Origin: Streptomyces mirabilis
Lineage (GTDB): Bacteria > Actinomycetota > Actinomycetes > Streptomycetales > Streptomycetaceae
Length of the DNA stretch: 64,000 bases
Direction of reading: 5' to 3'
Assembly: GCF_018310535.1 (NCBI RefSeq)
Contig: NZ_CP074102.1
Location: 3,038,001 to 3,102,000, forward strand
In this document: piece after piece, positions 5,568-39,544 of the stretch
How positions within the stretch are numbered: the first letter of the stretch is position 1
How the letters are laid out: the number at the start of each line of letters is the position of its first letter
Program-made: the position numbers and the translations under genes
Notes under the pieces: model-generated
Seen by the model: the letters and a program-made list of their open reading frames with translations, nothing else
What the model was told of the DNA's origin: nothing
The model's database searches: none

Positions 5568-5579
5568 CTACGCGCGTAG
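5568..5579. promoter_or_regulatory. Nucleoside-regulon palindrome, PNP copy
   Basis: A perfect 12-bp palindrome CTACGCGCGTAG lies 25 bp before the GTG of purine nucleoside phosphorylase. A TACCCT element at 5592-5597 can serve as -10, which puts the palindrome over the -35 region. It is identical to sites at 11125, 22856 and 36449. Confidence 0.75.
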
Positions 5580-5604
5580 GCCTGGACCGGCTACCCTCAT
5601 GCGC

Positions 5605-6429
5605 GTGAACGCATCTCTTCTTCCGGACGACATCCAGGGCGACCCCCACGCCGCCGCCGACGCCGCCGCCACCCGCCTGCGGGAGCTCACGGGCGCCGAG
5701 ACCCACGACGTCGCGCTCGTGATGGGCTCCGGCTGGGCTCCGGCCGTGGACGCCCTCGGCACCCCCGAGGCCGAGTTCCAGGTCACCGAGCTGCCCGGGT
5801 TCCCCCCGCCGGCGGTCGAGGGGCACGGCGGCAAGATCCGCTCGTACAAGATCGGTGACAAGCGGGCCCTGGTCTTCCTCGGCCGCACCCACTACTACGA
5901 GGGCCGCGGAGTCGCCGCCGTCGCGCACGGCGTGCGTACCGCCGTCGCCGCGGGCTGCAAGACCATCGTGCTCACCAACGGCTGCGGTGGTCTGCGTGCG
6001 GACATGCGCCCCGGCCAGCCGGTGCTGATCAGCGACCACATCAACCTGACGGCGACGTCCCCGATCGTCGGGGCGAACTTCGTCGACCTCACCGACCTGT
6101 ACTCGCCGCGGCTGCGCGCCCTCTGCAAGGAGGTCGACCCCACCCTGGAGGAGGGCGTCTACGCGCAGTTCACCGGGCCGCACTACGAGACGCCGGCCGA
6201 GATCCGGATGGCCCGTGTCCTCGGCGCGGACCTCGTCGGCATGTCGACGGTTCTCGAAGCGATCGCCGCGCGTGAGGCCGGTGCGGAGGTTCTCGGCATC
6301 TCCCTCGTCACCAACCTCGCCGCGGGTATGACGGGCGAGCCCCTCAACCACGAGGAGGTCCTCCAGGCGGGCCGCGACTCCGCAACCCGCATGGGCGCCC
6401 TCCTCACCCAGGTCCTGGACCGCCTGTAG
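5605..6429 (+). CDS. Purine nucleoside phosphorylase (trimeric PNP/MTAP family)
   Basis: The enzyme cleaves purine (deoxy)ribonucleosides with phosphate to base plus (deoxy)ribose 1-phosphate in the cytoplasm. The 274-residue sequence shows the phosphate loop VMGSGWAP near residue 37, GRTHYYEG (phosphate/ribose contact) near 93, the base-site region LTNGCGG, and [12 protein letters not shown] followed by GADLVGMS. These are hallmarks of the low-molecular-mass trimeric class. GTG at 5605 fits a leaderless transcript from TACCCT at 5592; ATG at 5599 is a possible alternative. The upstream palindrome links it to the nucleoside uptake genes. Confidence 0.93.
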
Positions 6430-6971
6430 GGGTTCATCGCCCCCGCCGCCCCTACCCGTCCCATCCCTGGGGGCTGCACCCCCCAGACCCCTCTGTCGGC
6501 CTGAACGGCCTCGTCCTCGAACGCCGGACGGGCTGAAGACGCGGGCCGGGGCTTTCAGGGGCGCGGGGAACTGCGCGACCGGCCCCCACCGGTCGGCAGC
6601 CAAAAGGTAAAGGACGGACGGCGGATGCGGGGCGAAGCCCCCGCCCCAGGGGCGCGGGGAACTGCGCGACCAGCCCCCACCAACCGGCAGCCAAAAGGCA
6701 AAAGGCGGACGGCGGATGCGGGGCGAAGCCCCGCCCCAGGGGCGCGGGGAACGGCGCGGGCAACCCCCACCGGCCCGCAGCCGAGGCACTTCGCACCGGC
6801 GGGGATCCGGGGCGAAGCCCCGACCCCAGGGGCGCGGGGAACGGCGCGGGCAACCCCCACCCACCCGCAGCCGACCATCGCACCCGGACGGGTAGGCACG
6901 GCGGGGGCGAGAGAAGGCACCCCTGGCCGGGTACACACCAAGGGCAGCACAAACAGAGAGGTTCACCCGAC
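6430..6971. repeat. Gene-free stretch with four copies of a 90-bp GC-rich intergenic repeat
   Basis: I see no credible gene here. The core CAGGGGCGCGGGGAAC recurs at 6556, 6647, 6737 and 6827, spacings of 91, 90 and 90 bp. Each copy is followed by GCCCCCACC or CAACCCCCACC and a CGGCAGCC-like segment, and three are preceded by GGGGCGAAGCCCC, which folds on itself. The same core occurs at 19984, 20075 and, inverted, near 10900. These elements sit only between genes. I infer a role in transcription termination or a mobile repeat family, without proof. Confidence 0.75.
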
Positions 6972-8603: not shown

Positions 8604-8642
8604 TCCCGCGCCTCGGATCCCGCGCCTCGGATCCCGCGCCTC
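8602..8642. repeat. 14-bp tandem repeat, three units
   Basis: GATCCCGCGCCTCG is repeated three times (8602-8615, 8616-8629, 8630-8642, the last lacking its final G). The array begins inside the stop codon of the phosphosugar mutase gene, so copy number would not alter the protein. Confidence 0.85.
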
Positions 8643-8777
8643 CGCGAGGGCCCAGGTCCAGGACTCAGCCACTTACGGGTGATTTCCGCCCGGCAGTTGA
8701 CGCAGCGCTCCGGTGCGCCACCATCCGACCGAGGAACGGTTGGCGGTAGCGCACCGCCGAGCCCCAGGAGCTGCCGC

Positions 8778-10010: not shown

Positions 10011-10057
10011 CAGGCCGGGACGAGCCGAGACAGGCCGGGACGAGCCGTGACGAGCCG
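10007..10057. repeat. 20-bp tandem repeat at a gene end
   Basis: The unit GTGACAGGCCGGGACGAGCC occurs at 10007, again with one change (GAGACAGG...) at 10027, and a shortened form follows from 10047. It spans the stop codon of the preceding membrane protein gene. Confidence 0.7.
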
Positions 10058-10093
10058 AGAGCTGACACGGGGCCTGCGTGCGGCAGGCGGGGG

Positions 10094-10735
10094 CTACCCC
10101 ACCGCCAGCAGGATCGCCAGGACCACGGCCCCCGCGAGTGCGGGACCCATGACCTCGTACGCCCACCGCACGCTCACCTCGCCCTGCGCGCCCTCCGTGG
10201 CCGCCCGGGCCTCGGCGAGTTCGCGCAGGTCGTCCATGACCTGGTCGGCCTGGGAACGGGTGGGCCCGCTCGCCACCGAGGAGGTGCGTCCGCTGCTGTC
10301 GGCGGCGGCGTTGCGCGCCTGCCGTCGGGCCGCGGACTTGCGGGCACGCAGGGAGACGGGGATCGCCCAGAGCTGGAACTTGGCGCCCTCGGTGTCGACC
10401 ACCTCGTTGGAGTACCCGGAACGCAGTGAGGCGACCTTGCTCCAGGGCAGCACGACGACACGGAACGGGTTACGGACACGCAGCCGGTCCTCGTTGGCGT
10501 AGACCGCGGGGCGCAGGGTGAAGGCGGCCACCAGCGGAACCAGGAGGATCAGCGCGGCGAGTGCCAGCCAGGGGGTGCGGCCGTGGCCGGAGACCAGCGC
10601 GTCGATGCCGAGCCAGCCCGTGATGGCGAGCAGCAGTACGCCGCCCGCGATGCCGGCGTGTGACCGGTAGATCCGGTCCTGCGACTCGGGTCGCGAGGCG
10701 TCCGGCACGGGTGGCTGGTCATCCGGGGTCGTCAT
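10094..10735 (-). CDS. PH domain-containing membrane protein
   Basis: The 213-residue protein has two N-terminal hydrophobic segments (AGGVLLLAITGWLGI and WLALAALILLVPLVAAF). A bacterial PH-like domain of about 70 residues follows (RLRVRNPFRVVVLPWSKVASLR), then a charged Arg/Ala-rich region and one C-terminal membrane segment (AGAVVLAILLAV). Such proteins are common in actinobacteria with no assigned function. ATG at 10735 follows a GGGGG ribosome site. It is convergent with the preceding membrane glycosyltransferase gene. Confidence 0.8.
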   Translation of the reverse strand: MTTPDDQPPVPDASRPESQDRIYRSHAGIAGGVLLLAITGWLGIDALVSGHGRTPWLALAALILLVPLVAAFTLRPAVYANEDRLRVRNPFRVVVLPWSKVASLRSGYSNEVVDTEGAKFQLWAIPVSLRARKSAARRQARNAAADSSGRTSSVASGPTRSQADQVMDDLRELAEARAATEGAQGEVSVRWAYEVMGPALAGAVVLAILLAVG

Positions 10736-11124: not shown

Positions 11125-11136
11125 CTACGCGCGTAG
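11125..11136. promoter_or_regulatory. Nucleoside-regulon palindrome, deoC copy
   Basis: A perfect CTACGCGCGTAG lies immediately upstream of a candidate -10 TATGCT (11138-11143). Six bases later comes GTG 11150, which suggests a leaderless deoC transcript with the operator covering the core promoter. Confidence 0.75.
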
Positions 11137-11149
11137 ATATGCTCAGCTC

Positions 11150-12106
11150 GTGACCATGCCCACCACTGCACCCGCACTCGGCGACGTAACCGCGTCAGAC
11201 AGCACGCTGCGCCGCTTCCTCCACGGGCTCCCCGGCGTCGACACGGTCGGCCTGGAGGCTCGCGCCGCCTCGCTCGGCACCCGTTCCATCAAGACGACCG
11301 CGAAGGCGTACGCCATCGACCTCGCCATCTCGATGGTCGACCTGACGACGCTGGAAGGCGCGGACACCCCGGGCAAGGTCCGGGCGCTCGGCGCCAAGGC
11401 GGTCCACCCCGACCCCACGGACCGTACGACGCCCACCACCGCGGCCGTCTGCGTGTACCCCGACATGGTGGCCACCGCCAAGGACGCCGTCGCCGGCTCC
11501 GGCGTGAAGGTCGCCTCGGTCGCCACCGCCTTCCCGGCCGGCCGCGCGGCCCTCGACGTGAAGCTCGCCGACGTACACGACGCGGTCGCCGCCGGTGCCG
11601 ACGAGATCGACATGGTCATCGACCGCGGGGCGTTCCTCGCGGGCAAGTACATGAAGGTGTACGACGAGATCACCGCCGTGAAGGAGGCCTGCGGGACCAG
11701 CGCCCGCCTGAAGGTCATCTTCGAGACCGGCGAGCTCTCGACGTACGACAACATCCGCCGCGCGAGCTGGCTCGGCATGCTGGCCGGCGCGGACTTCATC
11801 AAGACCTCGACCGGCAAGGTCGCCGTCAACGCGACCCCGGCGAACACGCTCCTCATGCTGGAGGCGGTCCGCGACTTCCGCGCCCAGACCGGCGTCCAGG
11901 TCGGCGTGAAGCCCGCCGGCGGCATCCGCACCACCAAGGACGCCATCAAGTTCCTGGTCCTGGTGAACGAGACCGCGGGCGCGGACTGGCTGGACAACCA
12001 CTGGTTCCGCTTCGGCGCGTCCTCGCTCCTGAACGACCTGCTGATGCAGCGTCAGAAGCTGGCCACCGGCCGCTACTCCGGCCCCGACTACGTGACGGTG
12101 GACTGA
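11150..12106 (+). CDS. deoC: Deoxyribose-phosphate aldolase (DERA)
   Basis: This cytoplasmic class I aldolase splits 2-deoxyribose 5-phosphate into glyceraldehyde 3-phosphate and acetaldehyde. The TIM-barrel sequence shows the Schiff-base lysine in ADFIKTSTGKVAVN (about residue 218), EIDMVIDRGAFLAGK, and VGVKPAGGIRTTKDA with the second conserved lysine. GTG at 11150 fits a leaderless mRNA; ATG at 11156 is the alternative. Two aldehyde dehydrogenase genes follow, the first 5 bp downstream, and could remove the acetaldehyde. The upstream palindrome places it in the nucleoside regulon. Confidence 0.95.
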   Translation: MTMPTTAPALGDVTASDSTLRRFLHGLPGVDTVGLEARAASLGTRSIKTTAKAYAIDLAISMVDLTTLEGADTPGKVRALGAKAVHPDPTDRTTPTTAAVCVYPDMVATAKDAVAGSGVKVASVATAFPAGRAALDVKLADVHDAVAAGADEIDMVIDRGAFLAGKYMKVYDEITAVKEACGTSARLKVIFETGELSTYDNIRRASWLGMLAGADFIKTSTGKVAVNATPANTLLMLEAVRDFRAQTGVQVGVKPAGGIRTTKDAIKFLVLVNETAGADWLDNHWFRFGASSLLNDLLMQRQKLATGRYSGPDYVTVD

Positions 12107-12111
12107 TCACC

Positions 12112-14455: not shown

Positions 14456-14460
14456 GGTTC

Positions 14461-17016: not shown

Positions 17017-17694
17017 GTGCCTTCCCTGTTGCTGATCGAGGACGACGACGCCATCCGTACGGCCCTGGAGCTCTCTTTGACGCGCCAGGGACACCGGGTG
17101 GCCACCGCTGCCACCGGCGAGGACGGTCTGAAACTGTTGCGTGAGCAGCGGCCGGATCTGATCGTGCTGGACGTGATGCTGCCCGGCATCGACGGGTTCG
17201 AGGTGTGCCGGCGCATCCGGCGCACGGACCAGCTGCCGATCATTCTGCTGACCGCGCGCAGCGACGACATCGACGTCGTGGTCGGGCTCGAGTCCGGCGC
17301 CGACGACTATGTCGTCAAGCCCGTGCAGGGGCGGGTACTCGACGCCCGTATCAGGGCCGTGCTGCGGCGCGGGGAGCGCGAGGCCAACGACTCGGCGACG
17401 TTCGGTTCCCTCGTCATCGACCGGGCGGCCATGACGGTCACCAAGAACGGCGAGGATCTGCAGCTGACGCCCACCGAGCTGCGGCTGCTCCTGGAGCTGA
17501 GCCGCCGGCCCGGACAGGCGCTGTCCCGCCAGCAGTTGCTGCGACTGGTGTGGGAGCACGACTACCTGGGCGACTCGCGGCTGGTGGACGCGTGTGTCCA
17601 GCGGCTGCGCGCGAAGATCGAGGACGTTCCGTCCTCGCCCACCCTGATCCGTACGGTCCGCGGAGTCGGCTACCGACTGGATACTCCTCAGTGA
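17017..17694 (+). CDS. afsQ1: Two-component response regulator AfsQ1
   Basis: This OmpR/PhoB-class regulator has 225 residues. The receiver domain begins LLLIEDDDAIR, with phosphoacceptor Asp52 in LIVLDVMLPG and the conserved lysine in DDYVVKPVQG. A winged-helix DNA-binding domain follows (LTPTELRLLLELSRRPG, then RTVRGVGYRL). In S. coelicolor AfsQ1 responds to glutamate-grown conditions and activates antibiotic genes. GTG at 17017 gives the expected family length; ATG at 17008 would add three residues. The stop overlaps the start of afsQ2 by 4 bp. Confidence 0.95.
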   Translation: MPSLLLIEDDDAIRTALELSLTRQGHRVATAATGEDGLKLLREQRPDLIVLDVMLPGIDGFEVCRRIRRTDQLPIILLTARSDDIDVVVGLESGADDYVVKPVQGRVLDARIRAVLRRGEREANDSATFGSLVIDRAAMTVTKNGEDLQLTPTELRLLLELSRRPGQALSRQQLLRLVWEHDYLGDSRLVDACVQRLRAKIEDVPSSPTLIRTVRGVGYRLDTPQ

Positions 17695-21684: not shown

Positions 21685-22839
21685 TCAGCCCCGTTCCTCC
21701 AAGGAACCACTGGTGGAGGCGGTCTGCTGGAACAGCCATTCGGATTTGAGCTCTGCATATCCAGGCTTGATCACGTCATTGATCATCGCCAGTCGTTCAT
21801 CGAAAGGAATGAATGCTGACTTCATAGCATTGACAGAGAACCACTGCATATCATCGAGCGAATAACCGAACGCATCGACCAGATGCTCGAATTCGCGCGA
21901 CATGCTCGTCCCTGACATGAGCCGGTTGTCCGTGTTCACGGTCGCCCGGAAGTGCAGGCGCCGCAGCAGACCGATCGGGTGCTCCGAGTAGGAGTCGGCG
22001 GCGCCGGTCTGGAGGTTGGAGCTGGGGCACAGTTCCAACGGGACGCGCTTGTCACGGACGTACGAGGCCAGCCGTCCGAGCTTCACCGAGCCGTCCGCCG
22101 CGACCTGGATGTCGTCGATGATCCGCACACCGTGGCCGAGCCGGTCCGCGCCGCACCACTGGAGCGCCTGCCAGATGGAGGGGAGCCCGAAGGCCTCGCC
22201 GGCGTGGATGGTGAAGTGGTTGTTCTCGCGCTTGAGGTACTCGAAGGCGTCGAGGTGACGGGTGGGCGGGAAGCCCGCCTCGGCGCCCGCGATGTCGAAG
22301 CCCACCACTCCCAGATCGCGGTAGCGGTTGGCCAGTTCGGCGATCTCCAGGGCGCGGGCCGCATGCCGCATGGCGGTGAGCAGGGCGCCGACCCGGATGC
22401 GGTGGCCGTTCTCCCGGGCACGCCGCTCACCCTCCCGGAAGCCCTCGTTGACCGCCTCGACGACCTCTTCGAGGGTGAGCCCGGCCTCCAGGTGCTGTTC
22501 CGGCGCGTACCGCACCTCGGCGTAGACGACCCCGTCCTCGGCGAGGTCCTCGGCGCACTCGGCGGCGACCCGCACCAGCGCCTCGCGTGTCTGCATGACG
22601 GCACAGGTGTGGGCGAAGGTCTCCAGGTACCGCTCCAGGGACCCGGAGTCCGCGGCCTCGCGGAACCAGACGCCGAGTTTGTCGGGGTCGGTCTCGGGGA
22701 GCCCGGAATAGCCTGTCTCCTGGGCGAGTTCCACGATCGTCCCGGGGCGCAGGCCCCCGTCGAGGTGATCGTGCAGCAGGACCTTGGGTGCCCGGCGGAT
22801 CTGTTCCGAGCTCGGGGTGTTCTGGATCTGGCTCGTCAT
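21685..22839 (-). CDS. add: Adenosine deaminase
   Basis: This zinc hydrolase converts (deoxy)adenosine to (deoxy)inosine, feeding purine nucleoside phosphorylase. The 384-residue sequence has the first metal motif HDHLDGGL near residue 24, the catalytic-base region HAGEAFG near 217, RLGHGVRI near 239, and the final metal aspartate in [12 protein letters not shown]. The last 70 codons are visibly less GC-rich than the rest. ATG at 22839 lies 16 bp from a nucleoside-regulon palindrome. On the minus strand a TACAGT element between them can serve as -10. Confidence 0.95.
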
Positions 22840-22855: not shown

Positions 22856-22867
22856 CTACGCGCGTAG
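22856..22867. promoter_or_regulatory. Nucleoside-regulon palindrome, adenosine deaminase copy
   Basis: A perfect CTACGCGCGTAG lies 16 bp upstream of the add ATG and 84 bp upstream of the divergent gene at 22952. It sits over the inferred -35 region of add. Confidence 0.75.
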
Positions 22868-23814: not shown

Positions 23815-24777
23815 TCAGTCCGGTAGCAGGTGGCCCCTCCTCGACAGCAGGAACTTCTTGAAGGCCGCCACCGGTGGGGTGTCCGGGTGGCCGTCCAGCC
23901 ATGCCACCCCGATCTCGCGGACCGCTCTCGGGGCCGTGACCGTCAGTTCGACCACCCCCGGGCGGGGCACGGCCGGGGGTGGCAGGAGGGCGACTCCGAG
24001 GCCGGCGGCCACCAGGCCCCGTAGGGTCTCGGCCTCCTCGCCCTCGAAGGCGATCCGGGGCCTGAAGCCGGCCTCCTGGCAGAGGTCGTCGGTGATGCGG
24101 CGCATGCCGTAGCCGGGTTCGAGGGTCACGAAGGTCTCGTCGGCGGCCTCGGCGAGGCGGATGCGTTTGCGGGCGGCGAGGCGGTGGTCGGCCGGGACGA
24201 CGAGCCGGAGCTTCTGCTCGTCGAGGCGGCGGCCCACCAGGTCGGGCGCGTCCGGCACCGGCGAGGTGAGGCACAGGTCCAGCTCGCCCGAGCGCAGCCC
24301 CTCCAGCATCGCCTCACCGTAGTTCTGGACGAGGCTGAAGCGGACCCGGGGGTGGTCGGCGCGGAAGGCGCGGATCAGGCCGGGGACGGTCTCCGATCCC
24401 ATCGTGTGCAGGAAGCCGAACGCGACCTTGCCGGTGGCCGGGTCGGCGTCCGCGCGCACCTCCTCGGCTGCGCGCTCGATCTCGGCGAGGGCCCGTTCGA
24501 CGGAGGAGAGGAACGTACGGCCCGCGGGGGTGAGGGAGACCGTGCGGCCCCGGCGTGCGAACAGATCGACGCCGAGGTCCTGTTCGAGCCGGACCATGGC
24601 GCGCGAAAGGGTCGACTGGGGGACCTGCATCTCCTGCGCGGCGCGCGTGACGTGCTCCGTGCGGGCGACGCCGGCGAAGTACGCGAGGCGTGGGGCGAGC
24701 AACCTCGACATTCCCGCGCTGTCTTCTGTGTCACTGGACGGTGACAGGTGAGCCTGTGACCTTTGCTGATGCACCAT
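23815..24777 (-). CDS. LysR family transcriptional regulator
   Basis: The N-terminal winged helix lies at residues ~24-82 (RLAYFAGVARTEHVTRAAQE, then STLSRAMVRLEQDLGVDLFARRGR). A periplasmic-binding-like sensor domain follows, including FGFLHTMGSETVPGLI. The gene is divergent from an MFS transporter 62 bp away, the usual LysR target arrangement, so it probably controls that gene and itself. ATG at 24777 was chosen; ATG at 24711 would remove a 22-residue N-terminal tail. The effector is unknown. Confidence 0.9.
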   Translation of the reverse strand: MVHQQRSQAHLSPSSDTEDSAGMSRLLAPRLAYFAGVARTEHVTRAAQEMQVPQSTLSRAMVRLEQDLGVDLFARRGRTVSLTPAGRTFLSSVERALAEIERAAEEVRADADPATGKVAFGFLHTMGSETVPGLIRAFRADHPRVRFSLVQNYGEAMLEGLRSGELDLCLTSPVPDAPDLVGRRLDEQKLRLVVPADHRLAARKRIRLAEAADETFVTLEPGYGMRRITDDLCQEAGFRPRIAFEGEEAETLRGLVAAGLGVALLPPPAVPRPGVVELTVTAPRAVREIGVAWLDGHPDTPPVAAFKKFLLSRRGHLLPD

Positions 24778-24839
24778 GGGAACGATTATGGCGATTCCAT
24801 GCATTGGACGGATGAGCGACGAATCTTTAGTTTCGAAGC

Positions 24840-26225: not shown

Positions 26226-27389
26226 ATGGAGTTCCGCGTCGATCGCGACGACCTCGCCGAGGCGGTGGCCCGGGCAGCCCGCACCCTGCCCAGCCGCTCG
26301 CCGGTACCGGTGCTGGGCGGGCTGCTGCTGGAGGCCGGTCCGGGACGGCTCGGTATCTCGGGGTTCGACTTCGAGGCGGCGGCGAGCATCGAGATCGATG
26401 CCGAGACGGGGGCGGACGGCCGGATCCTCGTGCTGGGGCGCCGGCTGCTGGACATCTGCCGGGTGCTGCCGCAGGGGCAGGTGAGCTGCGCGCTGGAGGG
26501 GACGCGGTTCACGGTGGAGGCGGGTGGCACACGGTTCGGTCTGTCGACGCTGCCCAAGGACGAGTACCCGGCGCTGCCGGTGCCACCCGAGCCGCGCGGC
26601 ACCGTGGACGCCGCCGCGTTCGCGACCGCCGTGGCCCAGGTCGCCGTCGCGGCCGGGCGCGACGACACGCTGCCGGTCCTCACCGGCGTACAACTGCGGT
26701 TGTCCGGCGAGGAAATGACACTCTCCGCCTCGGACCGCTACCGGTACGCCGTGCGCGCCCTGGCCTGGAAACCCGAGGCCCCCCTCGACGACGTCGTGGA
26801 GGCGCTGCTGCCCGCGCGTCGGCTGCACGAGATCGCCCGTTCGCTGGCCCGCTCCGGTGAGGTGCGCATCGGGCTCGACCCCGCGGGCGGCGGGATGATC
26901 GGCTTCGAGGGTGGGTCCATGCGGACGGCGGTGCGGCTGATGGAGGGGCGGCTGCCGCGGCACGGCTCGCTGTTCTCGGTGTCCGACGCCGCGGTCGCGG
27001 AGGTGGAGCGCGAGGCGCTGGCGGAGGCCGTACGGCGCGTCGCCGTCGTCGCCGAGGTGAACAGTCCCGTGCGGCTGGACTTCACCGGTGACGGCGAGGG
27101 ATCCGTTCTGCTGCGCGCCGGATACGCCGACGACGTGGCCTCGCAGCGGCTGCCCGCGGCGCTGACCGGCACGGCGGAGCTCACCGTCGCCTTCAACCCG
27201 GCGTATCTGCTGGACGCCCTGAACTCCTTCGAGGAGCCGCGGATACGGCTGGAGCTGCTGGGGCCGGGGCAGCGGGCGCTGCTGAGCGGGGCCGAATCGG
27301 CGGCCGGGGCCGAAGCGGAGGCCGACGCCGGGGGCGAGGCGGACGGTGCGTACCGGCATCTGCTCATGTCCGTGAAGCAATTGGTCTGA
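26226..27389 (+). CDS. DNA polymerase III beta subunit paralogue (second sliding clamp)
   Basis: The 387-residue protein has the three-domain beta-clamp pattern. Domain 1 starts MEFRVDRDDLAEAVARAART with LGGLLLEA, domain 2 begins after LSTLPKDEYPALP, and domain 3 begins near VEREALAEAVRRVAV. The typical end xLLMPV is present as HLLMSVKQLV. It carries an Ala/Glu-rich insert before that end. A ring clamp tethers polymerases to DNA. The isolated position away from oriC genes and the damage-type promoter suggest a clamp used after DNA damage, which is inference. The ribosome site AGGGGGA precedes ATG 26226. Confidence 0.85.
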   Translation: MEFRVDRDDLAEAVARAARTLPSRSPVPVLGGLLLEAGPGRLGISGFDFEAAASIEIDAETGADGRILVLGRRLLDICRVLPQGQVSCALEGTRFTVEAGGTRFGLSTLPKDEYPALPVPPEPRGTVDAAAFATAVAQVAVAAGRDDTLPVLTGVQLRLSGEEMTLSASDRYRYAVRALAWKPEAPLDDVVEALLPARRLHEIARSLARSGEVRIGLDPAGGGMIGFEGGSMRTAVRLMEGRLPRHGSLFSVSDAAVAEVEREALAEAVRRVAVVAEVNSPVRLDFTGDGEGSVLLRAGYADDVASQRLPAALTGTAELTVAFNPAYLLDALNSFEEPRIRLELLGPGQRALLSGAESAAGAEAEADAGGEADGAYRHLLMSVKQLV

Positions 27390-27417
27390 GCTGCGCTTTT
27401 TCCCACTTCGGGGGCCA

Positions 27418-27440
27418 TTGTCAGTGGGCTGCGGTAGCTT
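27418..27440 (+). promoter_or_regulatory. RecA-NDp/PafBC-type DNA-damage promoter, ECF sigma copy
   Basis: TTGTCAGTG, eight bases and TAGCTT repeat the layout of the element at 26167 with ten identical leading bases (TTGTCAGTGG). It lies in the gap between the clamp gene and the sigma gene, giving a 5' leader of about 55 bases. Confidence 0.75.
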
Positions 27441-27501
27441 CCGAAGTGCCGGCGCAACGAGGCGACGGTACGACGGGAACAGCCATAGGGGCGGGTTGGC
27501 C

Positions 27502-28494
27502 ATGAGCGACGGTACGGCGACGACGACAGATCTGGACGTCCGGCTGGAGAAGCACCGGGTCGAGCTGACCGGGTACTGCTATCGCATGCTCGGCTCCTCC
27601 TTCGAGGCGGAGGACGCGGTGCAGGACACGATGGTCCGCGCCTGGCGGAGCTTCGACAAGTTCGAGGGCCGTTCGTCGATGCGGTCCTGGCTGTACCGGA
27701 TCGCCACCAACGTCTGCCTCGACATGCTGAACGCCGGCAACCGGAGGGCTCGTCCGATGGATCTGAGTGGTCCCTCACCCCTGGCTCAGGCGGCGCTCAC
27801 CCCGCGCCCGGACAACGTCTGGCTGGAGCCGATGCCCGACGCGCGTGTGCTGCCCACGATCAGTGACCCGGCCGAGGCCGCGGTGGCCAAGGAATCGGTG
27901 CGCCTCGCCTTCATGGCCGCCCTGCAGCAGCTGCCGCCCAAGCAGCGCGCCGTGCTCATCCTGCGCGAGGTCCTGGCCTGGAAGGCGGCCGAGGTCGCCG
28001 AACTGCTCGGGACGACGGTCGCCTCGGTCAACAGCGCGTTGCAGCGGGCCCGCGCGACCCTCGCGGAGAGCGACAGCGCCGAGGCCGCCGTCTCCGACCC
28101 GCTCGACGAGGAGCAGCAGAAGCTCCTGGAGCGCTATGTCGCGGCGTTCGAGGGGTACGACATGACGGCGCTGACCGCGCTGCTCCACGAGGACGCGATC
28201 ATGACGATGCCGCCGTTCGACCTGTGGCTGCGCGGCACGGGCGACATCACCGGTTTCATGACGACCCTCGGTGCCTCCTGCGCGGGTTCGCGCCTGCTGC
28301 CGGTCGCGGTCAACGGTCTGCCGGGATTCGCGCACTACAAGCCGGACCCGGAGGAGGGCGGCTTCAGTGCCTGGGCGATCCAGGCGCTGGAGATCTCAGA
28401 CGGCCGCATCACCGGGTTCCACTGCTTCCTGGACACCAAGCGCTGGTTCCCGCTCTTCGGCCTCCCCCTCCAGCTCGAAGCGGAGTCCGACTAG
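27502..28494 (+). CDS. ECF sigma factor with C-terminal SnoaL-like domain (SigG-type)
   Basis: The 330-residue protein has region 2 (YCYRMLGSSFEAEDAVQDTM, SSMRSWLYRIATNVCLDML) and region 4 (LPPKQRAVLILREVL, helix TTVASVNSALQRARATL). A SnoaL/NTF2-like domain from about residue 200 follows (ERYVAAFEGYDMTAL, AIQALEISDGRITGFHCF). The C-terminal domain in this class tunes sigma activity. M. tuberculosis SigG has the same architecture and is induced by DNA damage from a RecA-NDp promoter, which fits the promoter at 27418. ATG at 27502 was chosen. Its last 99 bp overlap the opposite-strand STAS gene. Confidence 0.88.
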   Translation: MSDGTATTTDLDVRLEKHRVELTGYCYRMLGSSFEAEDAVQDTMVRAWRSFDKFEGRSSMRSWLYRIATNVCLDMLNAGNRRARPMDLSGPSPLAQAALTPRPDNVWLEPMPDARVLPTISDPAEAAVAKESVRLAFMAALQQLPPKQRAVLILREVLAWKAAEVAELLGTTVASVNSALQRARATLAESDSAEAAVSDPLDEEQQKLLERYVAAFEGYDMTALTALLHEDAIMTMPPFDLWLRGTGDITGFMTTLGASCAGSRLLPVAVNGLPGFAHYKPDPEEGGFSAWAIQALEISDGRITGFHCFLDTKRWFPLFGLPLQLEAESD

Positions 28495-30593: not shown

Positions 30594-31877
30594 TCAGGCG
30601 ATACGTTCCAGCACGACGGGGGTGGCCTTGAAGTCCGTGCCCGCGGCCGCGATGTCGTAGGAACCCTCGACCGACTCCAGGGCGTACTCGAAGCGCTCGG
30701 GGGTGTCGGTGTGGAGGGTCAGCAGGGGCTGGCCCGCGGTGACGGTGTCGCCGGGCTTGGCGTGCAGTTCGACGCCCGCGGCGGCCTGCACCGGGTCCTC
30801 CTTGCGGGCGCGCCCCGCGCCCAGGCGCCAGGCGGCGATGCCGATGTCGTAGGCGTCCAGGCGGGTCAGGACGCCGGAGGACGGGGCCGTCACCACGTGC
30901 TGCTCGCGGGAGGTGGGCAGCGCGGCGTCCGGGTCACCGCCCTGCGCGGCGATCATGCGGCGCCAGACGTCCATCGCCGAGCCGTCCGCGAGGGCCTTCG
31001 CCGGGTCGGCGTCCTTGATGCCCGCCGCGTCCAGCATCTCGCGCGCCAGGGCGATGGTGAGGTCGACGACGTCGGCCGGGCCGCCGCCCGCCAGGACCTC
31101 CACCGACTCCCGTACTTCGAGCGCGTTGCCCGCCGTCAGGCCCAGCGGGGTCGACATGTCCGTGAGGAGCGCGACCGTCCTCACTCCGTGGTCGGTGCCC
31201 AACCCGACCATCGTGGAGGCGAGTTCGCGGGCGTCCTCGATGGTCTTCATGAAGGCGCCGGTGCCGACCTTCACGTCCAGGACCAGCGAGCCCGTGCCCT
31301 CCGCGATCTTCTTCGACATGATGGAGGAGGCGATGAGGGGGATCGCCTCCACCGTGCCCGTGACGTCACGGAGCGCGTAGAGCTTCTTGTCCGCCGGGGC
31401 CAGGCCGTCGCCCGCGGCGCAGATGACCGCACCGGTCGTGTCGAGGACGTTCAGCATCTCCTCGTTCGACAGCAGGGCGCGCCAGCCGGGGATCGACTCC
31501 AGCTTGTCCAGCGTGCCGCCGGTGTGGCCGAGGCCGCGTCCGGACAGCTGCGGGACCGCCGCGCCGCACGCGGCGACCAGCGGCGCCAGCGGAAGGGTGA
31601 TCTTGTCGCCGACGCCGCCCGTGGAGTGCTTGTCGGCGGTCGGGCGGGAGAGGGAGGAGAACTCCATGCGCTCGCCGGAGGCGATCATCGCGGCGGTCCA
31701 GCGGGCGATCTCACGGCGGTTCATGCCGTTGAGCAGGATCGCCATGTTGAGGGCGGCCATCTGGTAGTCGGCGACCTCGCCGCGGGTGTACGCGTCGATG
31801 ACCCAGTCGATCTGCGCGTCGCTGAGCTCGGCGCGGTCCCGCTTGGTGCGGATGACGGAGACGGCGTCCATGGCCAT
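30594..31877 (-). CDS. deoA: Thymidine phosphorylase
   Basis: The enzyme converts thymidine or deoxyuridine plus phosphate to base and 2-deoxyribose 1-phosphate. The 427-residue protein has the all-alpha N-domain, the phosphate-binding loop KHSTGGVGDK near residue 84, the family pattern SGRGLGHTGGTLDKLESIPG near 114, and the central GTGSLVLDVKVGTGAFM. The C-terminal PYNP domain is also present. ATG at 31877 follows GGAAGG at 6 bp. It is the last gene of a run ABC transporter-cdd-deoA on the minus strand. Confidence 0.95.
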   Translation of the reverse strand: MAMDAVSVIRTKRDRAELSDAQIDWVIDAYTRGEVADYQMAALNMAILLNGMNRREIARWTAAMIASGERMEFSSLSRPTADKHSTGGVGDKITLPLAPLVAACGAAVPQLSGRGLGHTGGTLDKLESIPGWRALLSNEEMLNVLDTTGAVICAAGDGLAPADKKLYALRDVTGTVEAIPLIASSIMSKKIAEGTGSLVLDVKVGTGAFMKTIEDARELASTMVGLGTDHGVRTVALLTDMSTPLGLTAGNALEVRESVEVLAGGGPADVVDLTIALAREMLDAAGIKDADPAKALADGSAMDVWRRMIAAQGGDPDAALPTSREQHVVTAPSSGVLTRLDAYDIGIAAWRLGAGRARKEDPVQAAAGVELHAKPGDTVTAGQPLLTLHTDTPERFEYALESVEGSYDIAAAGTDFKATPVVLERIA

Positions 31878-31917
31878 GGCTTTCCTTCCGAAGACTTCCG
31901 AAAATCCGCGGCCCCTC

Positions 31918-31967
31918 CCGACCGGTCGTTCATCGTCCGGTTGTCGGGAGGGGCCGCGCAGGCGTTA
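31918..31967 (-). terminator. Intra-operon hairpin between cdd and deoA
   Basis: GCGGCCCCTCCCGAC (31918-31932) and its exact complement (31953-31967) form a 15-bp stem with a 20-base loop in the cdd-deoA gap. It could reduce read-through into deoA or stabilise the upstream mRNA. Confidence 0.7.
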
Positions 31968-32378
31968 CTTGGTGAGATTCTCCGGCCCGAAGGCCTGCGG
32001 CAGCATCTCGGAGAGCGGCAGGATTCCGGCCGGGGTCTCCAGGAGCAGATCGGCCCCACCGAACTCGTACAGCAGCTGGCGGCAGCGTCCGCACGGGACG
32101 AGGATCTCGCCCTGTCCGTCGACGCAGGTGAAGTGCGTCAGCCGACCGCCCCCGGTGTTCAGCAGCTGGGAGACCAGACCGCACTCGGCGCACAGTCCGA
32201 GCCCGTACGAGGCGTTCTCGACGTTGCAGCCGGTGACGGTCCGGCCGTCGTCGACGAGGGCCGCGACGCCGACCGGGAAGCCCGAGTAGGGGGCGTACGC
32301 CCGGGACATGGCGTCCCGCGCGAGCTCCCGCAGGGCCTCCCAGTCGACGGCCGTGGACCCGGCGCCGACGGACGTCAC
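31965..32378 (-). CDS. cdd: Cytidine deaminase
   Basis: The 137-residue enzyme deaminates (deoxy)cytidine to (deoxy)uridine. The small tetrameric class is recognised by AYAPYSGFPVGVA, GCNVENASYGLGLCAE (zinc-ligand cysteine and catalytic Glu) and PCGRCRQLL (two further zinc cysteines). GTG at 32378 overlaps the stop of the upstream permease gene (GTGA), so translation is coupled. Its product uridine could be used by the uridine kinase-like gene and deoxyuridine by thymidine phosphorylase. Confidence 0.95.
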   Translation of the reverse strand: MTSVGAGSTAVDWEALRELARDAMSRAYAPYSGFPVGVAALVDDGRTVTGCNVENASYGLGLCAECGLVSQLLNTGGGRLTHFTCVDGQGEILVPCGRCRQLLYEFGGADLLLETPAGILPLSEMLPQAFGPENLTK

Positions 32379-33637
32379 TTGCCCTGTCCTCTCCGGTACG
32401 GCATGCCGTCCGCCTTCGGCATCCGCAGGTGCTGCGCGGACAGCGAGAGCACGAGCAGGGTCACGACGTACGGCGTGGCGCTCACGAACTGCTGCGGGAC
32501 CTCGTCGGTGGCGAGATACCAGACGAACATCAGCGCCGAGACCACGGCCGTGATGACCGCGGGCACGACCCGCTTCTTCCATGCCAGGTAGGCCACGGCG
32601 AACACCAGCAGGATCGCGAGGAGCAGGATCAGCGCGTGCACGTTGGTGCCGCCGCCGCGCAGGTTGAGGCTGTCGGTGTAGCCGAACAGGCCCGCGCCGA
32701 GGGCGAGGCCGCCCGGCATCCAGTTGCCGAAGATCATCGCGGCGAGACCGATGTATCCGCGGCCGGCCGTCTGACCGTCCAGGTACACGTTGGACGCGAC
32801 GATCGACAGGAAGGCACCGCCGAGGCCGGCGAAGCCGCCCGAGATGATCACGGCGAGGTACTTGTACTTGTAGACGTTGACGCCGAGGGATTCGGCGGCC
32901 ACCGGGTTCTCACCGCAGGAACGCAGGCGCAGGCCGAAGGCCGTGCGCCACAGCACCCACCAGGTCGCGGGGATGAGGGCCACCGCGACGACGGTGAGCG
33001 GCGACAGGTCGGTGACCAGTCCGCCGAGCAGACCTGCGATGTCCGAGATCAGGAACCAGTGCTTGCCGTTGAGCGTGGTCAGCCAGCTGGACAGCCCTGG
33101 GATGTCGAAGGTGCCGAGCGAGTCGATCGGCGGGGACTGCTTGGAGGAGCCCTGCGGCGCGTTCTCGAAGGTGAACTTGGAGAGGTAGCGGGTGGTGCCG
33201 AGCGCCAGGATGTTGATGGCCACACCGGAGACGATGTGGTTGACGTTGAAGGTCACCGTGGCGATGGCGTGCAGGATGCCGCCGAGGCAGCCGCCGATGA
33301 TGCCGAAGGCGACACCGGTCCACGGCCCCCACTGGTAGCCGGCCCAGGCACCGAACCAGGTGCCGAGGATCATCATGCCTTCGAGGCCGATGTTGACGAC
33401 GCCCGCGCGCTCGGACCACAGGCCGCCGAGGCCCGCGAGGCCGATCGGCACCGCGAGGCGCAGCGCCGTGGACATCTGTCCGGTCGAGGTGATGCCGTCC
33501 GCGCCGGTGATCAGGCGGACGACCGAGGTCAGGATGAGTACGCCCGCAATGATCAGCAGGAGCACGGGGAGCGAGAATCGGCGGCTGCCCTTGCCGGGCT
33601 GCTGCGCCTGCGGCTTGGCGACGGTCGCGGTGCTCAT
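32375..33637 (-). CDS. Nucleoside ABC transporter permease (NupQ/BPD_transp_2 type)
   Basis: The 420-residue polytopic protein has a family signature region ERAGVVNIGLEGMMILG, followed by NHIVSGVAINILALG and FGLRLRSCGENPVAAESLGV (the cytoplasmic coupling loop). About ten membrane segments are present. It overlaps the upstream permease gene (ATGA) and cdd (GTGA). Together with the other permease and the ATPase it forms a BMP-dependent importer; the salvage genes in the operon argue for nucleosides. Residues 150-215 form a longer loop than usual. Confidence 0.9.
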   Translation of the reverse strand: MSTATVAKPQAQQPGKGSRRFSLPVLLLIIAGVLILTSVVRLITGADGITSTGQMSTALRLAVPIGLAGLGGLWSERAGVVNIGLEGMMILGTWFGAWAGYQWGPWTGVAFGIIGGCLGGILHAIATVTFNVNHIVSGVAINILALGTTRYLSKFTFENAPQGSSKQSPPIDSLGTFDIPGLSSWLTTLNGKHWFLISDIAGLLGGLVTDLSPLTVVAVALIPATWWVLWRTAFGLRLRSCGENPVAAESLGVNVYKYKYLAVIISGGFAGLGGAFLSIVASNVYLDGQTAGRGYIGLAAMIFGNWMPGGLALGAGLFGYTDSLNLRGGGTNVHALILLLAILLVFAVAYLAWKKRVVPAVITAVVSALMFVWYLATDEVPQQFVSATPYVVTLLVLSLSAQHLRMPKADGMPYRRGQGK

Positions 33638-34757
33638 CGGGCAGCCACCTCCTTCGGGGAGTTGTTGTTGGCGGCGGCCGCGGCCAGTTCCTCACCGACC
33701 CGCTTCTGCTGGCGGCGCAGGCCCCAGACACGTACGGCCTCGTACGAGATGACGACCGCGAAGACGATCAGGCCCTGCATGATCGTGGCGATCTCCTTCT
33801 CGTACGCCACCGGGGTCGCGTAGTCGAGCGCAGGGGACGCCTTGTCGAGGAAGGCCCACAGGAGCGCGGCGAGCGCGATGCCGCCCGGGTTGTTGCGGCC
33901 GAGCAGCGCGATGCCGATGGCGGTGAAGCCGAGGCCGGCCGGGAAGCTCAGGCTGTAGGTGTGGGCGTCACCCAGCAGCAGCGGCAGACCGGAGAAGCCC
34001 GCGATCGCGCCGGAGATCAGCATCGCGGTGAGCACCATCTTCTTGGCGTCGACGCCGGAGGCCGCGGCAGCGGTCTCGGAGGCACCGGTGGCGCGCAGGT
34101 CGAAGCCGAAGCGGGTGCGGTTGAGGACGAGCCAGTACAGAACGCCCATGAGGATCGCGATGAAGACCATGCCGTAGATCTCGCCGACGTCCGCGCCGAG
34201 GTTGATGCCAGGGAACCAGCCGGACTTCTTCATGATGCCGGTCGTGTTGTTGTTGCCGACCTGCACACCCCAGATGTTCTCCGCGGTGAGGTAGCCGATG
34301 AGGCTGGTGGCGATCGCGTTGAGCATGATCGTCGCGACGACCTCGCTCACACCGCGGGTGACCTTCAGGACGCCCGCGATACCGGCCCAGAAGGCGCCGG
34401 TGAACACCGCGACGAGCATGAGCACCGGGATCTGCAGGAAGGACGGCAGCGCGAGATGCGCGCCGACCACCGCGGTCATCATCGCGCCGAGGCGGTACTG
34501 GCCGTCGACGCCGATGTTGAACAGGTTCATGCGGAAGCCGATGGCCACACCGAGTGCCGCGATGTAGTACAGCGACGCCTGGTTGATGATCAGGACCTGG
34601 GTGTCGGAGTACGTCGCCTGCTGGAGCATCAGGGAGTACGGCTCGAACGGGCTCTTGCCCGAGGCGAGCAGCACGACCGAGGTCAGCGCGATCGCCGCGA
34701 CGAGCGCGATGACCGGGCCGGCCACCGCGAGGAGCACGCGCTCCTTGTCGAACTTCT

Positions 34758-34761
<4 letters not shown>
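33634..34761 (-). CDS. Nucleoside ABC transporter permease (NupP type)
   Basis: The 375-residue membrane protein has the BPD_transp_2 pattern GFRMNLFNIGVDGQYRLGA, then VTRGVSEVVATIMLNAIA and the coupling loop RFGFDLRATGASETAAAASG. ATG at 34761 overlaps the stop of the ATPase gene, and its own stop overlaps the next permease. It forms the heteromeric channel with the following permease. A Lys/Arg-rich start (MKKFDKERV) and an Ala-rich tail face the cytoplasm. Confidence 0.9.
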
Positions 34762-36419
<1,658 letters not shown>

Positions 36420-36448
36420 GGCGCACTCTCCTTGGAAAAGGGGCCTAT

Positions 36449-36460
36449 CTACGCGCGTAG
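36449..36460. promoter_or_regulatory. Nucleoside-regulon palindrome, ABC operon copy
   Basis: A perfect CTACGCGCGTAG lies 29 bp upstream of the ATPase start. On the minus strand it runs into TAGATA, a plausible -10, the same arrangement as at deoC. Confidence 0.75.
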
Positions 36461-36515
36461 CGCCCCTGCTTTGAATTGCACTCGGACGGACCGGGTTCTT
36501 TTCGGACTGCTTTCG

Positions 36516-36537
36516 GTCCGATCCGATCCGATCCGAG
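36516..36537. repeat. 5-bp microsatellite (TCCGA)x4
   Basis: Four tandem TCCGA units lie upstream of the ABC operon promoter. Length changes here would shift the distance from upstream elements; no function is evident. Confidence 0.6.
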
Positions 36538-36599
36538 CATTCTGCCGCGCGAACGGGGCACGGGAAGGTCATCCTCCCCACGCCCCGTTCCGTGGCCGT

Positions 36600-36619
36600 A
36601 ACGCTGCCATTACAGCGTT
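36600..36619 (-). terminator. Short hairpin after the first BMP lipoprotein gene
   Basis: AACGCTG and CAGCGTT pair around CCATTA, 65 bp beyond the stop of the lipoprotein gene. The stem is short and has no T-run, so this is a weak terminator call. Confidence 0.4.
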
Positions 36620-36683
36620 GCCATGGCCATGGTTTCGACGTCTGGTGATGACGTCGTGACCTGGGCCGGGATCAGGACTCGGG

Positions 36684-37733
36684 TCAGGAGGTCTTGACCG
36701 TGATCGAGCCGTCCTTGATACCCGCCTCGGCCTTCTTCAGCGCGGCCTGCAGGTCGGCGTTGTTCTTGAACGCCGGGTTCGAGTCGGCGAGGCCGACACC
36801 GCCGGTGGCGAGGCTGGCACGGACGACACCGGTCGCGGGCTTGCCGTCCGCCACGGACTTCGCGAGGTTGTAGACCGCCCCGGCGACGTCCTTGGTGGCC
36901 GAAGTCAGGATGTAGTCCTTGTACTTGGCCAGCGCGTCCTGCTTGTACTGGTCGGAGTCGACGCCGATGGCCCACACCTTGTGCGAGGCGGCGGACTGGA
37001 TGACGCCCTGACCCGACAGACCCGCGGCGGCGTAGATCACGTCCGCGCCCGCCTCGATCTGACCCTCGGCCGCGTCCTTGCCCTTGTCGGGGCTGGAGAA
37101 ACCGCCCTCCTGGGGCGTCTGGGTCAGGTACTGCTTCTCGATCTTGATCTTCGGGTTGACCGACTGGGCGCCCTGGACGTACCCGGCCTCGAACTTGTGG
37201 ATCAGCGGGATGTCCACGCCACCGACGAAGCCGATGTGGTCCTTCTTGGTGGCCTTCGCCGCCGCGACACCCGCGAGGTAGGAGGCCTGCTCCTCGTGGA
37301 AGACCATGTCGGCGACGTTCGCGGCCTTGTCCTGCTCGTCGTCGATGATGCCGAAGGTGGTCTTCGGGTACTTCGCCGCGACCTCCTTGACGGCCGGCGC
37401 GTACACGAAGCCGACGCCGATCACCGGGTTGTAGCCGGACTTGGCGAGCTGCTCCAGGCGCTGCACCTTGTCGGCGTCGGACTCGCCGTCCTGCGGCTCG
37501 ATGTCCCGGCCGCCGATCTTGAGGTCTTTCTCGGCCTTCTGGAAACCGGCGAACGCGGCGTCGTTGAAGGACTGGTCACCCTTGCCGCCGATGTCGTACG
37601 CAAGGCCGATGCCCTTGGTCTTGGCCGAGCCGCCGCTCGAGGCTTCGGTGGACGATCCGCCACAGGCGGAGAGGGCAACGGCGAGGGATGCGGTCGCAAC
37701 GCCCGCAACCGCGATTCGGGACACCCGGCGCAT
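36684..37733 (-). CDS. BMP family nucleoside-binding lipoprotein, copy 1
   Basis: The 349-residue protein has a signal peptide with lipobox LSACG and a Ser/Gly linker. The Bmp/PnrA-type binding fold follows: GLAYDIGGKGDQSFNDAA, PVIGVGFVYAPAVKEVA, TTFGIIDDEQ, VGGVDIPLIHKFEAGY and WAIGVDSDQY. It should be the lipid-anchored receptor that delivers nucleosides to the ABC importer encoded downstream. ATG at 37733 follows AAAGGAG. A palindrome variant lies 54 bp upstream. It shares a 199-bp exact stretch with copy 2. Confidence 0.92.
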   Translation of the reverse strand: MRRVSRIAVAGVATASLAVALSACGGSSTEASSGGSAKTKGIGLAYDIGGKGDQSFNDAAFAGFQKAEKDLKIGGRDIEPQDGESDADKVQRLEQLAKSGYNPVIGVGFVYAPAVKEVAAKYPKTTFGIIDDEQDKAANVADMVFHEEQASYLAGVAAAKATKKDHIGFVGGVDIPLIHKFEAGYVQGAQSVNPKIKIEKQYLTQTPQEGGFSSPDKGKDAAEGQIEAGADVIYAAAGLSGQGVIQSAASHKVWAIGVDSDQYKQDALAKYKDYILTSATKDVAGAVYNLAKSVADGKPATGVVRASLATGGVGLADSNPAFKNNADLQAALKKAEAGIKDGSITVKTS

Positions 37734-38087
37734 GAACGTGACTCCTTTGTGCAGGCGCCCAAACCAGGCGCTGATTCCGCCGCAGCGTAACGCGCGTAGA
37801 CATAGCAGAGAACCCACGTCGCCAGAGTGTTATCCGACCGTTTTGAACCCTCGGAGAACAAACTCCGAACACCAAGGGCGCACCTGGGGCTTCCACTCGG
37901 CAAAGCCACCCGGCCCCGGGACCCGACGTCGACGTATGCGATGCCATGCATCAGACCATGGTACTTTCCGAGATTCTGCCCAGATTTGATCTTTTCGACA
38001 GGTTCCCGCCGGGTATCGGCGTTGTTCTGTCGGGCACCGTGGTCCGGCGTCGAGGTGTTCACCAACGACCCCGCACGACCGCATGCA
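37734..38087. other. Upstream region of BMP copy 1
   Basis: This 354-bp stretch has no convincing gene. It holds the palindrome variant at 37788 and the ribosome site. It is AT-richer than its surroundings at about 37830-37870 and 37950-38010, and short ORFs in it overlap the promoter. I see no further named element. Confidence 0.5.
37788..37799. promoter_or_regulatory. Nucleoside-regulon palindrome variant, BMP copy 1
   Basis: TAACGCGCGTAG (plus strand) matches the palindrome except that one arm reads TTA instead of TAG when viewed from the gene. It lies 54 bp upstream of the ATG, next to a candidate -10 (CTATGT on the minus strand). Confidence 0.7.
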
Positions 38088-38130
38088 TGAGGGAGCCCCC
38101 GGCCCGTACAACGGGCCGGGGGCTCCCTCA
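38088..38130. terminator. 20-bp perfect-stem terminator after BMP copy 2
   Basis: Arms 38088-38107 and 38111-38130 are exact complements around an ACA loop. The hairpin lies 27 bp beyond the stop of the second BMP gene and probably isolates its transcript from the downstream copy. Confidence 0.88.
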
Positions 38131-38157
38131 CCGGTGATCAGCCGCGACAGGCACGAC

Positions 38158-39234
38158 TCACTGGGTCGTCTTGACGGTGACCTTGCCGTCGATGATGTCC
38201 TGCTTGGCCTTGTCGACCGCAGCGACGACATCCTTCATGGCCTTGTACTTCGGGTTGGAGTCGGCGAAGCCGACGCCGCCCGACTTCAGGTCACCGCGCA
38301 CGACACCGCTCAGCGGCTTGCCGTCGACGACGGACTTGGCCAGGTCGTACACCGCGCCGCCGACGTTCTTCAGGGCCGAGCCGAGGATCCAGTCCTTGTA
38401 CTTGGCCAGGGAGCTCTGCGCGTACTGGTCGGAGTCGACGCCGATGGCCCACACCTTCTTGGAGGCGGCCTCGGAGATCACGCCCTGACCGGACAGGCCG
38501 GCCGCGTGGTAGAGCACGTCGGCGCCCTTCTCGATCTGGCCGGCCGCCGCGTCCTTGCCCTTGTCGGGGCTGGCGAAGCCGCCCTCCTGGGGCGTCTGCG
38601 TCAGGTACTGCGACTCGATCTTGATGCTCGGGTTGACCGACTTCGCGCCCTGGTCGAAGCCCGCCTCGAACTTGTGGATGAGCGGAATGTCCACGCCGCC
38701 GATGAAGCCGATGTGGTTCTTCTTGGTGGCCTTCGCCGCAGCGACACCCGCGAGGTAGGAGGACTGCTCCTCGTGGAAGACCAGGTCGGCTATGTTCGCC
38801 GCCTTGTCCTGCTCGTCGTCGATGATGCCGAAGGTGGTCTTCGGGTACTTCGCCGCGACCTCCTTGACGGCCGGCGCGTACACGAAGCCGACGCCGATCA
38901 CCGGGTTGTAGCCGGACTTGGCGAGCTGCTCCAGGCGCTGCACCTTGTCGGCGTCGGACTCGCCGTCCTGCGGCTCGATGTCCCGGCCGCCGATCTTGAA
39001 CTCGGTCTCGGCCTTCTGGAAACCGGCGAACGCGGCGTCGTTGAAGGACTGGTCGCCCTTGCCACCGATGTCGTACGCGAGACCGATGCCCTTCCCGGCG
39101 TAGCCCGACGAGCTCTTCTTGGAGTCGCTGCTCGTGTCGGTGCTCGACTTGCCACAACCGACCGCCGCGAGGGCGATGACCGAGACGGCCACCGCTGCTT
39201 GGGAGAACCTGGTCCTCCGAGACATCAGACGCAC
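38158..39234 (-). CDS. BMP family nucleoside-binding lipoprotein, copy 2
   Basis: It has the same architecture as the 36684 gene: signal peptide with lipobox AAVGC, a Ser/Lys linker, then GLAYDIGGKGDQSFNDAA, PVIGVGFVYAPAVKEVA, GGVDIPLIHKFEAGF and WAIGVDSDQY. It differs mostly in the linker and the C-terminal third. I chose GTG at 39234 because GAAGG lies 9 bp upstream; ATG at 39225 is too far from it. A strong terminator follows, so its expression can be uncoupled from copy 1. It may have a different nucleoside preference. Confidence 0.92.
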   Translation of the reverse strand: MRLMSRRTRFSQAAVAVSVIALAAVGCGKSSTDTSSDSKKSSSGYAGKGIGLAYDIGGKGDQSFNDAAFAGFQKAETEFKIGGRDIEPQDGESDADKVQRLEQLAKSGYNPVIGVGFVYAPAVKEVAAKYPKTTFGIIDDEQDKAANIADLVFHEEQSSYLAGVAAAKATKKNHIGFIGGVDIPLIHKFEAGFDQGAKSVNPSIKIESQYLTQTPQEGGFASPDKGKDAAAGQIEKGADVLYHAAGLSGQGVISEAASKKVWAIGVDSDQYAQSSLAKYKDWILGSALKNVGGAVYDLAKSVVDGKPLSGVVRGDLKSGGVGFADSNPKYKAMKDVVAAVDKAKQDIIDGKVTVKTTQ

Positions 39235-39544
39235 AGCAAGCACCCTTCATCCCCACGGCCGTCGCCGGTCCGCTTCCCCAACACGCCGCCGACGCAGCGA
39301 TTTCGGCGCACAGTAACGCGCGTAGAAGGGGAGGGGAACGGTGTTTCTCCTGGCCGTTATCGAACCGTGCCGCCACCGGGTTACGTTTGCGCGCCACCCG
39401 TTACGACGGGGTGACGCAAGCGGACAAAGGGGTGCCGATCGGGGCATCGGACGGGCCGGCGGCCCGGGTACCCCTACGTCATTTGTGCGCCGTATTTGTG
39501 CGCCGTCTCCGGGTGAGCGTCTCGCGTTCGTGGGACCGCGTCCA
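39235..39544. other. Upstream region of BMP copy 2
   Basis: There is no credible gene in this ~310-bp stretch. It holds the palindrome variant at 39315 and, further out, GTTACG-containing sequence without a recognisable motif. Short frames here are shadows. Confidence 0.45.
39315..39326. promoter_or_regulatory. Nucleoside-regulon palindrome variant, BMP copy 2
   Basis: TAACGCGCGTAG, identical to the variant at 37788, lies 80 bp upstream of the proposed GTG. Both lipoprotein genes therefore share the same altered arm. Confidence 0.7.

Follow-up and report, generated by a model that had tools for sequence, protein, structure and literature searches.

In the purine regulon of E. coli, the LacI-type repressor PurR acts on an even, CpG-centred palindrome and controls purine synthesis together with some salvage genes, and in the same organism salvage genes (deo, add and nucleoside transport) are held under the repressors DeoR and CytR. 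The B. subtilis PurR regulon ties purine synthesis to purine and nucleoside uptake through a repressor of the PRT fold. The palindrome analysed here lies in a 64,000-nucleotide stretch of the Streptomyces mirabilis chromosome (the window) and shares something with each of these systems. Its geometry and gene set recall E. coli PurR, but the operator sequence is different and nucleoside import and breakdown form the core of the regulon. The salvage genes are those of DeoR and CytR, whose operators are different and whose regulons hold no pur genes, and the B. subtilis regulator is unrelated in both protein fold and operator. The open literature, a scope that leaves most subscription journals outside, yielded no Streptomyces purine or nucleoside repressor matching this regulon, nor any regulatory use of the motif, whose strings turned up only in two papers, both unrelated to judge by their titles and the start of their abstracts. 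We consider it about an even call that a single repressor acting at the DNA level, most likely a LacI protein of the SCO4158 type, uses the palindrome as its operator and would govern nucleoside uptake and breakdown, de novo purine synthesis and a purine permease. If this is true, a single short operator marks the master switch of purine and nucleoside supply in the chief family of antibiotic producers, and the candidate protein for that switch can be tested directly.

The features concerned are as follows, with all -10 elements of the operator-bearing promoters assigned by eye.

2282..3244, minus strand: DeoR-family gene, the regulator originally proposed (Pfam)
5568..5579, plus strand: pnp operator, exact palindrome, ending 12 bp upstream of the putative -10 TACCCT
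5599..6429, plus strand: pnp, purine-nucleoside phosphorylase (TIGR01698; start picked by eye)
11125..11136, plus strand: deoC operator, exact palindrome, ending 1 bp ahead of the putative -10 TATGCT
11150..12106, plus strand: deoC, deoxyribose-phosphate aldolase (TIGR00126)
21685..22839, minus strand: add, adenosine deaminase (NCBIfam)
22856..22867, minus strand: add operator, exact palindrome, ending 4 bp ahead of the putative -10 TACAGT
30594..34761, minus strand: remainder of the ABC operon (permeases, cdd, deoA-type phosphorylase)
30594-31877, minus strand: deoA-type phosphorylase (NCBIfam)
within 31965-32582, minus strand: cdd, cytidine deaminase (NCBIfam)
32375-33637 and 33634-34761, minus strand: two BPD_transp_2 permeases (Pfam)
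34758..36581, minus strand: ABC transporter ATPase ORF (ORF call and Pfam)
36449..36460, minus strand: ABC-cdd-deoA operator, exact palindrome, one arm overlapping the putative -10 TAGATA
36684..37733, minus strand: bmp1, PnrA/Bmp-type nucleoside-binding lipoprotein (ORF 36684-37817; in-frame ATG at 37733 picked by eye)
37788..37799, minus strand: bmp1 operator, variant TCTACGCGCGTTAC, one arm overlapping the putative -10 TTACGCT
38158..39243, minus strand: bmp2, PnrA/Bmp-type lipoprotein (Pfam)
39314..39325, minus strand: bmp2 operator, variant TCTACGCGCGTTAC, one arm overlapping the putative -10 TTACTGT

The ABC ATPase gene must in reality begin downstream of its operator. The position of the palindrome over the core promoter varies, from the 12 bp spacing at pnp through those at add and deoC to outright overlap at the ABC operon, bmp1 and bmp2, and such variation suits a repressor. 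By covering the -10 element or the -35/-10 stretch, the proposed repressor would block RNA polymerase at bmp1, bmp2, ABC-cdd-deoA, add, pnp and deoC across the Streptomycetaceae, and a purine- or nucleoside-linked effector would alter its grip. The odd arm of the bmp sites (TTA for TAG) would be forced by the overlapping -10 elements.

The original prediction placed exact palindromes before pnp, deoC, add and the nucleoside ABC operon, and a window scan returned CTACGCGCGTAG at exactly those positions (5568-5579, 11125-11136, 22856-22867 and 36449-36460). The predicted variant, TAACGCGCGTAG, is likewise present before both bmp genes, at 37788-37799 and at 39314-39325, the second copy starting one base before the 39315 first reported, and the gene names hold up against NCBIfam (pnp, deoC, add, thymidine/pyrimidine-nucleoside phosphorylase, cytidine deaminase) and Pfam (Bmp, ABC ATPase, permeases, DeoR). 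The genome of 9,621,341 bases (9.62 Mb) contains 4 exact copies of CTACGCGCGTAG, none of them outside the window; chance alone, under a first-order Markov model built from the window, would give 0.0028 copies there and 0.41 genome-wide. With up to one mismatch the genome holds 20 places, the exact copies included. Looser matching is less telling: 8 copies with up to two mismatches occur in the window, only modestly above shuffled sequence (average 3.95, with 3 of 100 shuffles reaching 8), so the case rests on the perfect matches, on where they stand in the promoters and on how well they are conserved. The two-mismatch copies still unaccounted for, at 17605 and 23062, sit within called ORFs. 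Across the genome, exact sites precede nucleoside genes only. A weak point is that places with up to two mismatches hardly exceed background there, at 76 compared with 64 for the reversed control.

Conservation carries the argument further. TCTACGCGCGTAG was found in all 61 sampled genomes of the genus, with between 2 and 5 places per genome (the reversed control gave 9 places in all 61 together), and sites are kept before orthologous genes. In the family sample, 60/61 genomes representing 16/17 genera contained it, and the single genome that lacks an exact match carries CTACTCGCGTAG close to where deoC begins (L171). Family loci that were examined carry sites before pnp, deoC, add, the ABC ATPase, bmp1 and bmp2. 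An order-level sample gave TCTACNCGCGTAG in 45/45 genus genomes and in 1 of 15 genomes from two other families. The expectation of an operator-like site of a nucleoside regulon is borne out by conservation before orthologous genes through genus and family.

We catalogued sites with up to two mismatches by a best-hit rule, omitting windows shorter than 300 bases and matches below 55% identity; the loci were mostly chosen for carrying the motif, so the following rates are biased. Sites were present in 46/46 upstream windows for pnp, 28/28 for deoC, 44/44 for add, 14/14 for bmp1, 16/17 for bmp2, 33/33 for purS, 7/18 for the ABC operon and 1/11 for deoA. The ABC count rises to 16/18 with a wider window, so that extrapolated gene starts explain most of the ABC misses, and deoA is mostly internal to the ABC operon. 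Thirteen bmp promoters were counted under both bmp names, and the windows lacking a site (11 ABC, 1 bmp2, 10 deoA) are left out of the distinct sites, which number 176.

In 20 non-family loci with a nucleoside ABC cluster (one of which, L142, yielded no gene calls), no palindrome with up to two mismatches occurred at the start of bmp, add, deoC or pnp, and one lay near any called gene start just twice (L145:4393 and L146:6960). Among all the loci read, outlying sites in L037, L048, L151, L156, L157 and L194 may be due to chance. De novo motif search in 20 non-family loci returned another palindrome, GTCGTTNAACGAC, in 11 of 90 upstream windows; we rejected it as an operator because it falls within bmp coding sequence (by eye, a stretch resembling DQSFNDAA) and is also found in family bmp genes. 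In another family, a bmp promoter (L145, about 5390) reads CTACTCGCGAGTAG by eye, the same arms with two extra bases between them.

The original prediction underestimated the scope of the regulon, since purSQL, a purine permease and, in one genome, purN also carry sites. In the S. mirabilis genome a one-mismatch site lies at 4,407,453, 57 bp upstream of purS, and of 31 genus genomes, 24 have the form TCTACGCG(A/G)GTAGA upstream of purS. A search for TCTACGCGDGTAGA found 26 places in 24/31 genus genomes, 24 of them beside purS and the other two upstream of a Xan_ur permease and of the ABC operon. The distance from this pur-type site to purS is 57-92 bp in 23 of 24 cases, the last locus being cut by a contig end that makes its figure unusable. 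Purine permease sites occur in two genomes, and the Xan_ur permease of S. mirabilis itself is preceded by TCTACGCGCGGAGA. In one genome, G367, purN too has a site, an exact palindrome upstream of the gene. The regulon had been called dispersed, a word that needs qualifying: the window copies all lie within 34 kb, and the purSQL site is 1.36 Mb distant on the chromosome. The two forms of the site also change places, with the nucleoside form before purS, at the head of purSQL, in another genome (G191) and the pur form, marked by an inner change, at some pnp, deoC and ABC sites. This interchange makes a single regulator the simpler view, and the repressor proposed for the salvage genes would then also control purSQL, the purine permease and, in that one genome, purN.

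When the 176 distinct sites are oriented by their strong half, positions 2-8 (CTACGCG) are invariant in all of them, and the CG centre is likewise kept in 176/176. The complete 14-mer, TCTACGCGCGTAGA, is absent: 146 sites match it at 13 of 14 positions, 21 at 12, 9 at 11 and none at 14. None of the 107 perfect 12-mers has both the outer T and the outer A, and all 49 sites that have both carry an inner change. Used as a class-wide probe, the 14-mer revealed this asymmetry and was of no use for distribution, as it was found in none of 296 class genomes (28 of them of the genus), nor does it occur in the 407 sequences gathered. Shared ancestry inflates the counts of asymmetric sites. The departures differ from gene to gene, which makes selection against the perfect form plausible. 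We tentatively suggest, at somewhat short of even confidence, that SCO4158 is a family-wide master repressor of purine synthesis and nucleoside salvage that would read an invariant half, TCTACGCG, with the other half held imperfect, the perfect 14-bp palindrome being excluded and the promoters tuned below maximal strength. The missing perfect palindrome would then be a clean natural case of operators kept below maximal strength.

LacI-family operators are even palindromes with a GC|GC core and a central CpG. The site shares this geometry, being even and centred on GC|GC, and a LacI-type regulator is more likely than DeoR to bind it. LacI was the one regulator family listed genome-wide, and 26 loci with a LacI domain were found. 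Within 3 kb at each of them, a site with up to two mismatches was present at a single one, L265 (G000:C1, about 4.528 Mb), where TCTACGCGGATGGA lies 8 bp before the GTG start. The protein combines the LacI HTH with a periplasmic-binding-like effector domain (PF00356, PF13377, PF00532) and would probably repress its own gene. Its promoter site matches the operator at 12/14 positions, with a weak second half and a strong half that includes the putative -10 TAGACT. At this promoter TCCGCGTAGACT is unchanged in 80/80 relatives, which are the best 80 of 570 matches and include 77 records titled Streptomyces. The bases to its left are TCCAT in 60, TATAT in 13, TCTCT in 4, TCAAT in 2 and GCAAT in 1 of these best 80, and the four adjoining bases match TCTA at three of four positions in 79. 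The conserved half includes the putative -10, so promoter conservation alone could explain it. In a genus further out (G364), the LacI orthologue (83% identical) has ACCCGCGTAGACT and purS is preceded by TCTACTCGCGTAGA; in one further genus the LacI gene was not found at the one position guessed for it.

Among the 120 best homologues listed, the L265 protein is 86-94% identical, and the solved structures closest to it in sequence are chains of CcpA, RbsR and PurR. It reaches no NCBIfam equivalog cut-off, scoring 179.7 bits against the PurR model (cut-off 501) and 163.8 bits against that for CytR (cut-off 436). A PurR-like effector is not indicated, as the purine contacts R190 and R196 of PurR align by eye with T and H. 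L265 follows a GlnR-like ORF (by eye), the same place as SCO4158, of which it is likely the orthologue. PMC9739823 gives SCO4158 as a LacI regulator gene downstream of glnR, suggests glnR as its target and cites a paper on pigment production; the passages on SCO4158 in PMC3878966, PMC4848846 and PMC5839063 name no purine targets. An ArgR box is given for SCO4158 in PMC5839063, a possible link between arginine/pyrimidine control and a candidate purine regulator. We give L265 a roughly balanced chance of being the repressor of the palindrome regulon.

The regulator first proposed was the DeoR-family protein encoded at 2282-3244, which in this reading would sense a phosphosugar from nucleoside breakdown or PRPP. 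E. coli DeoR controls deo genes, and here deoR is present in 61/61 family genomes and stands beside lpd in 13/13 family loci where it was called, so that a place in the nucleoside region goes only with presence of the motif; outside the family the gene is located elsewhere and the motif is missing. The weak site offered as evidence, ATACGCGCCTAC at 3333, is indeed in the sequence, but it is not conserved: it is absent upstream of deoR in six other genus loci (L051, L054, L058, L060, L061, L064), although other upstream pieces are kept there. Orthologues outside the family also speak against DeoR. A match at 1e-40 was found in 92 of 296 class genomes (28 of the genus and 64 others), and 20 loci taken from the 64 non-family genomes had no palindrome with up to two mismatches at called gene starts (deoR itself was uncalled in a few), nor were pnp, add, deoC or bmp found in them. 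The recognition helices read in non-family loci are nearly identical, and GATCGG-type boxes (by eye) stand there in place of the motif. DeoR as the binder is thus distinctly improbable.

The operator could also be genuine and be read by some other transcription factor, from the GntR, TetR or another family, or by a different LacI protein. The LacI family is the one that was listed in the genome and the case for L265 is circumstantial, but the geometry of the operator suits LacI, and in the S. mirabilis genome no other regulator was recognised beside sites with up to two mismatches, among the neighbouring genes that could be named; we regard this as unlikely, at a level that still deserves attention. 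Two related regulators might instead discriminate between two sites, one for purine synthesis, TCTACGCG(A/G)GTAGA, and one for salvage, TCTACGCGCGTAG(G/C), with the perfect form avoided against cross-talk. This would fit the pur-type site in 32/33 purS windows and the missing 14-mer, in the 296 class genomes as in the 176 distinct sites, but the nucleoside form stands in the remaining purS window and at the G191 locus, the pur-like inner change recurs at several pnp, deoC and ABC sites, and we give the idea little credence. That the palindrome is a promoter feature, an RNA element or a modification site, suggested by the copies that overlap a putative -10, is hardly credible, as the pnp and add sites lie upstream of the putative -10 and would not be transcribed, and the palindrome is restricted to one pathway. 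The single repressor, most probably of the LacI type, remains our preferred reading.

Several sites lie beside other genes. A second adenosine deaminase gene, far from the cluster, has an exact palindrome at its start in five loci (L027, L046, L047, L049, L159), and the four that gave an identity are 61-63% identical to add. CTACGCCCGTAG, with the same flanks, precedes a CN_hydrolase gene in S. mirabilis (G000:C1:928617, L005), a possible extra member of the regulon, and an ORF in a close relative (L158:1028). An exact palindrome is found upstream of a HAD-type hydrolase gene in two genomes (L039, L158:4670). One genome has two tandem near-palindromes (L050:4626 and 4649) ahead of a gene for a signal-peptide protein of unknown function, and a gene resembling it in S. 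mirabilis (L103, G000:C1:8551055) is preceded by one near-palindrome.

The window also contains a LysR gene (23815-24804) adjoining an MFS gene, and ECF sigma genes. At 26226-28494 a DnaN-type sliding clamp gene (TIGR00663) adjoins an ECF sigma factor with a SnoaL/NTF2 domain, and at 43264-47570 on the minus strand a WXG100 gene stands in a row with two ORFs that carry a CdiA-CT RNase A-type domain and with a gene for a CdiI-type immunity protein.
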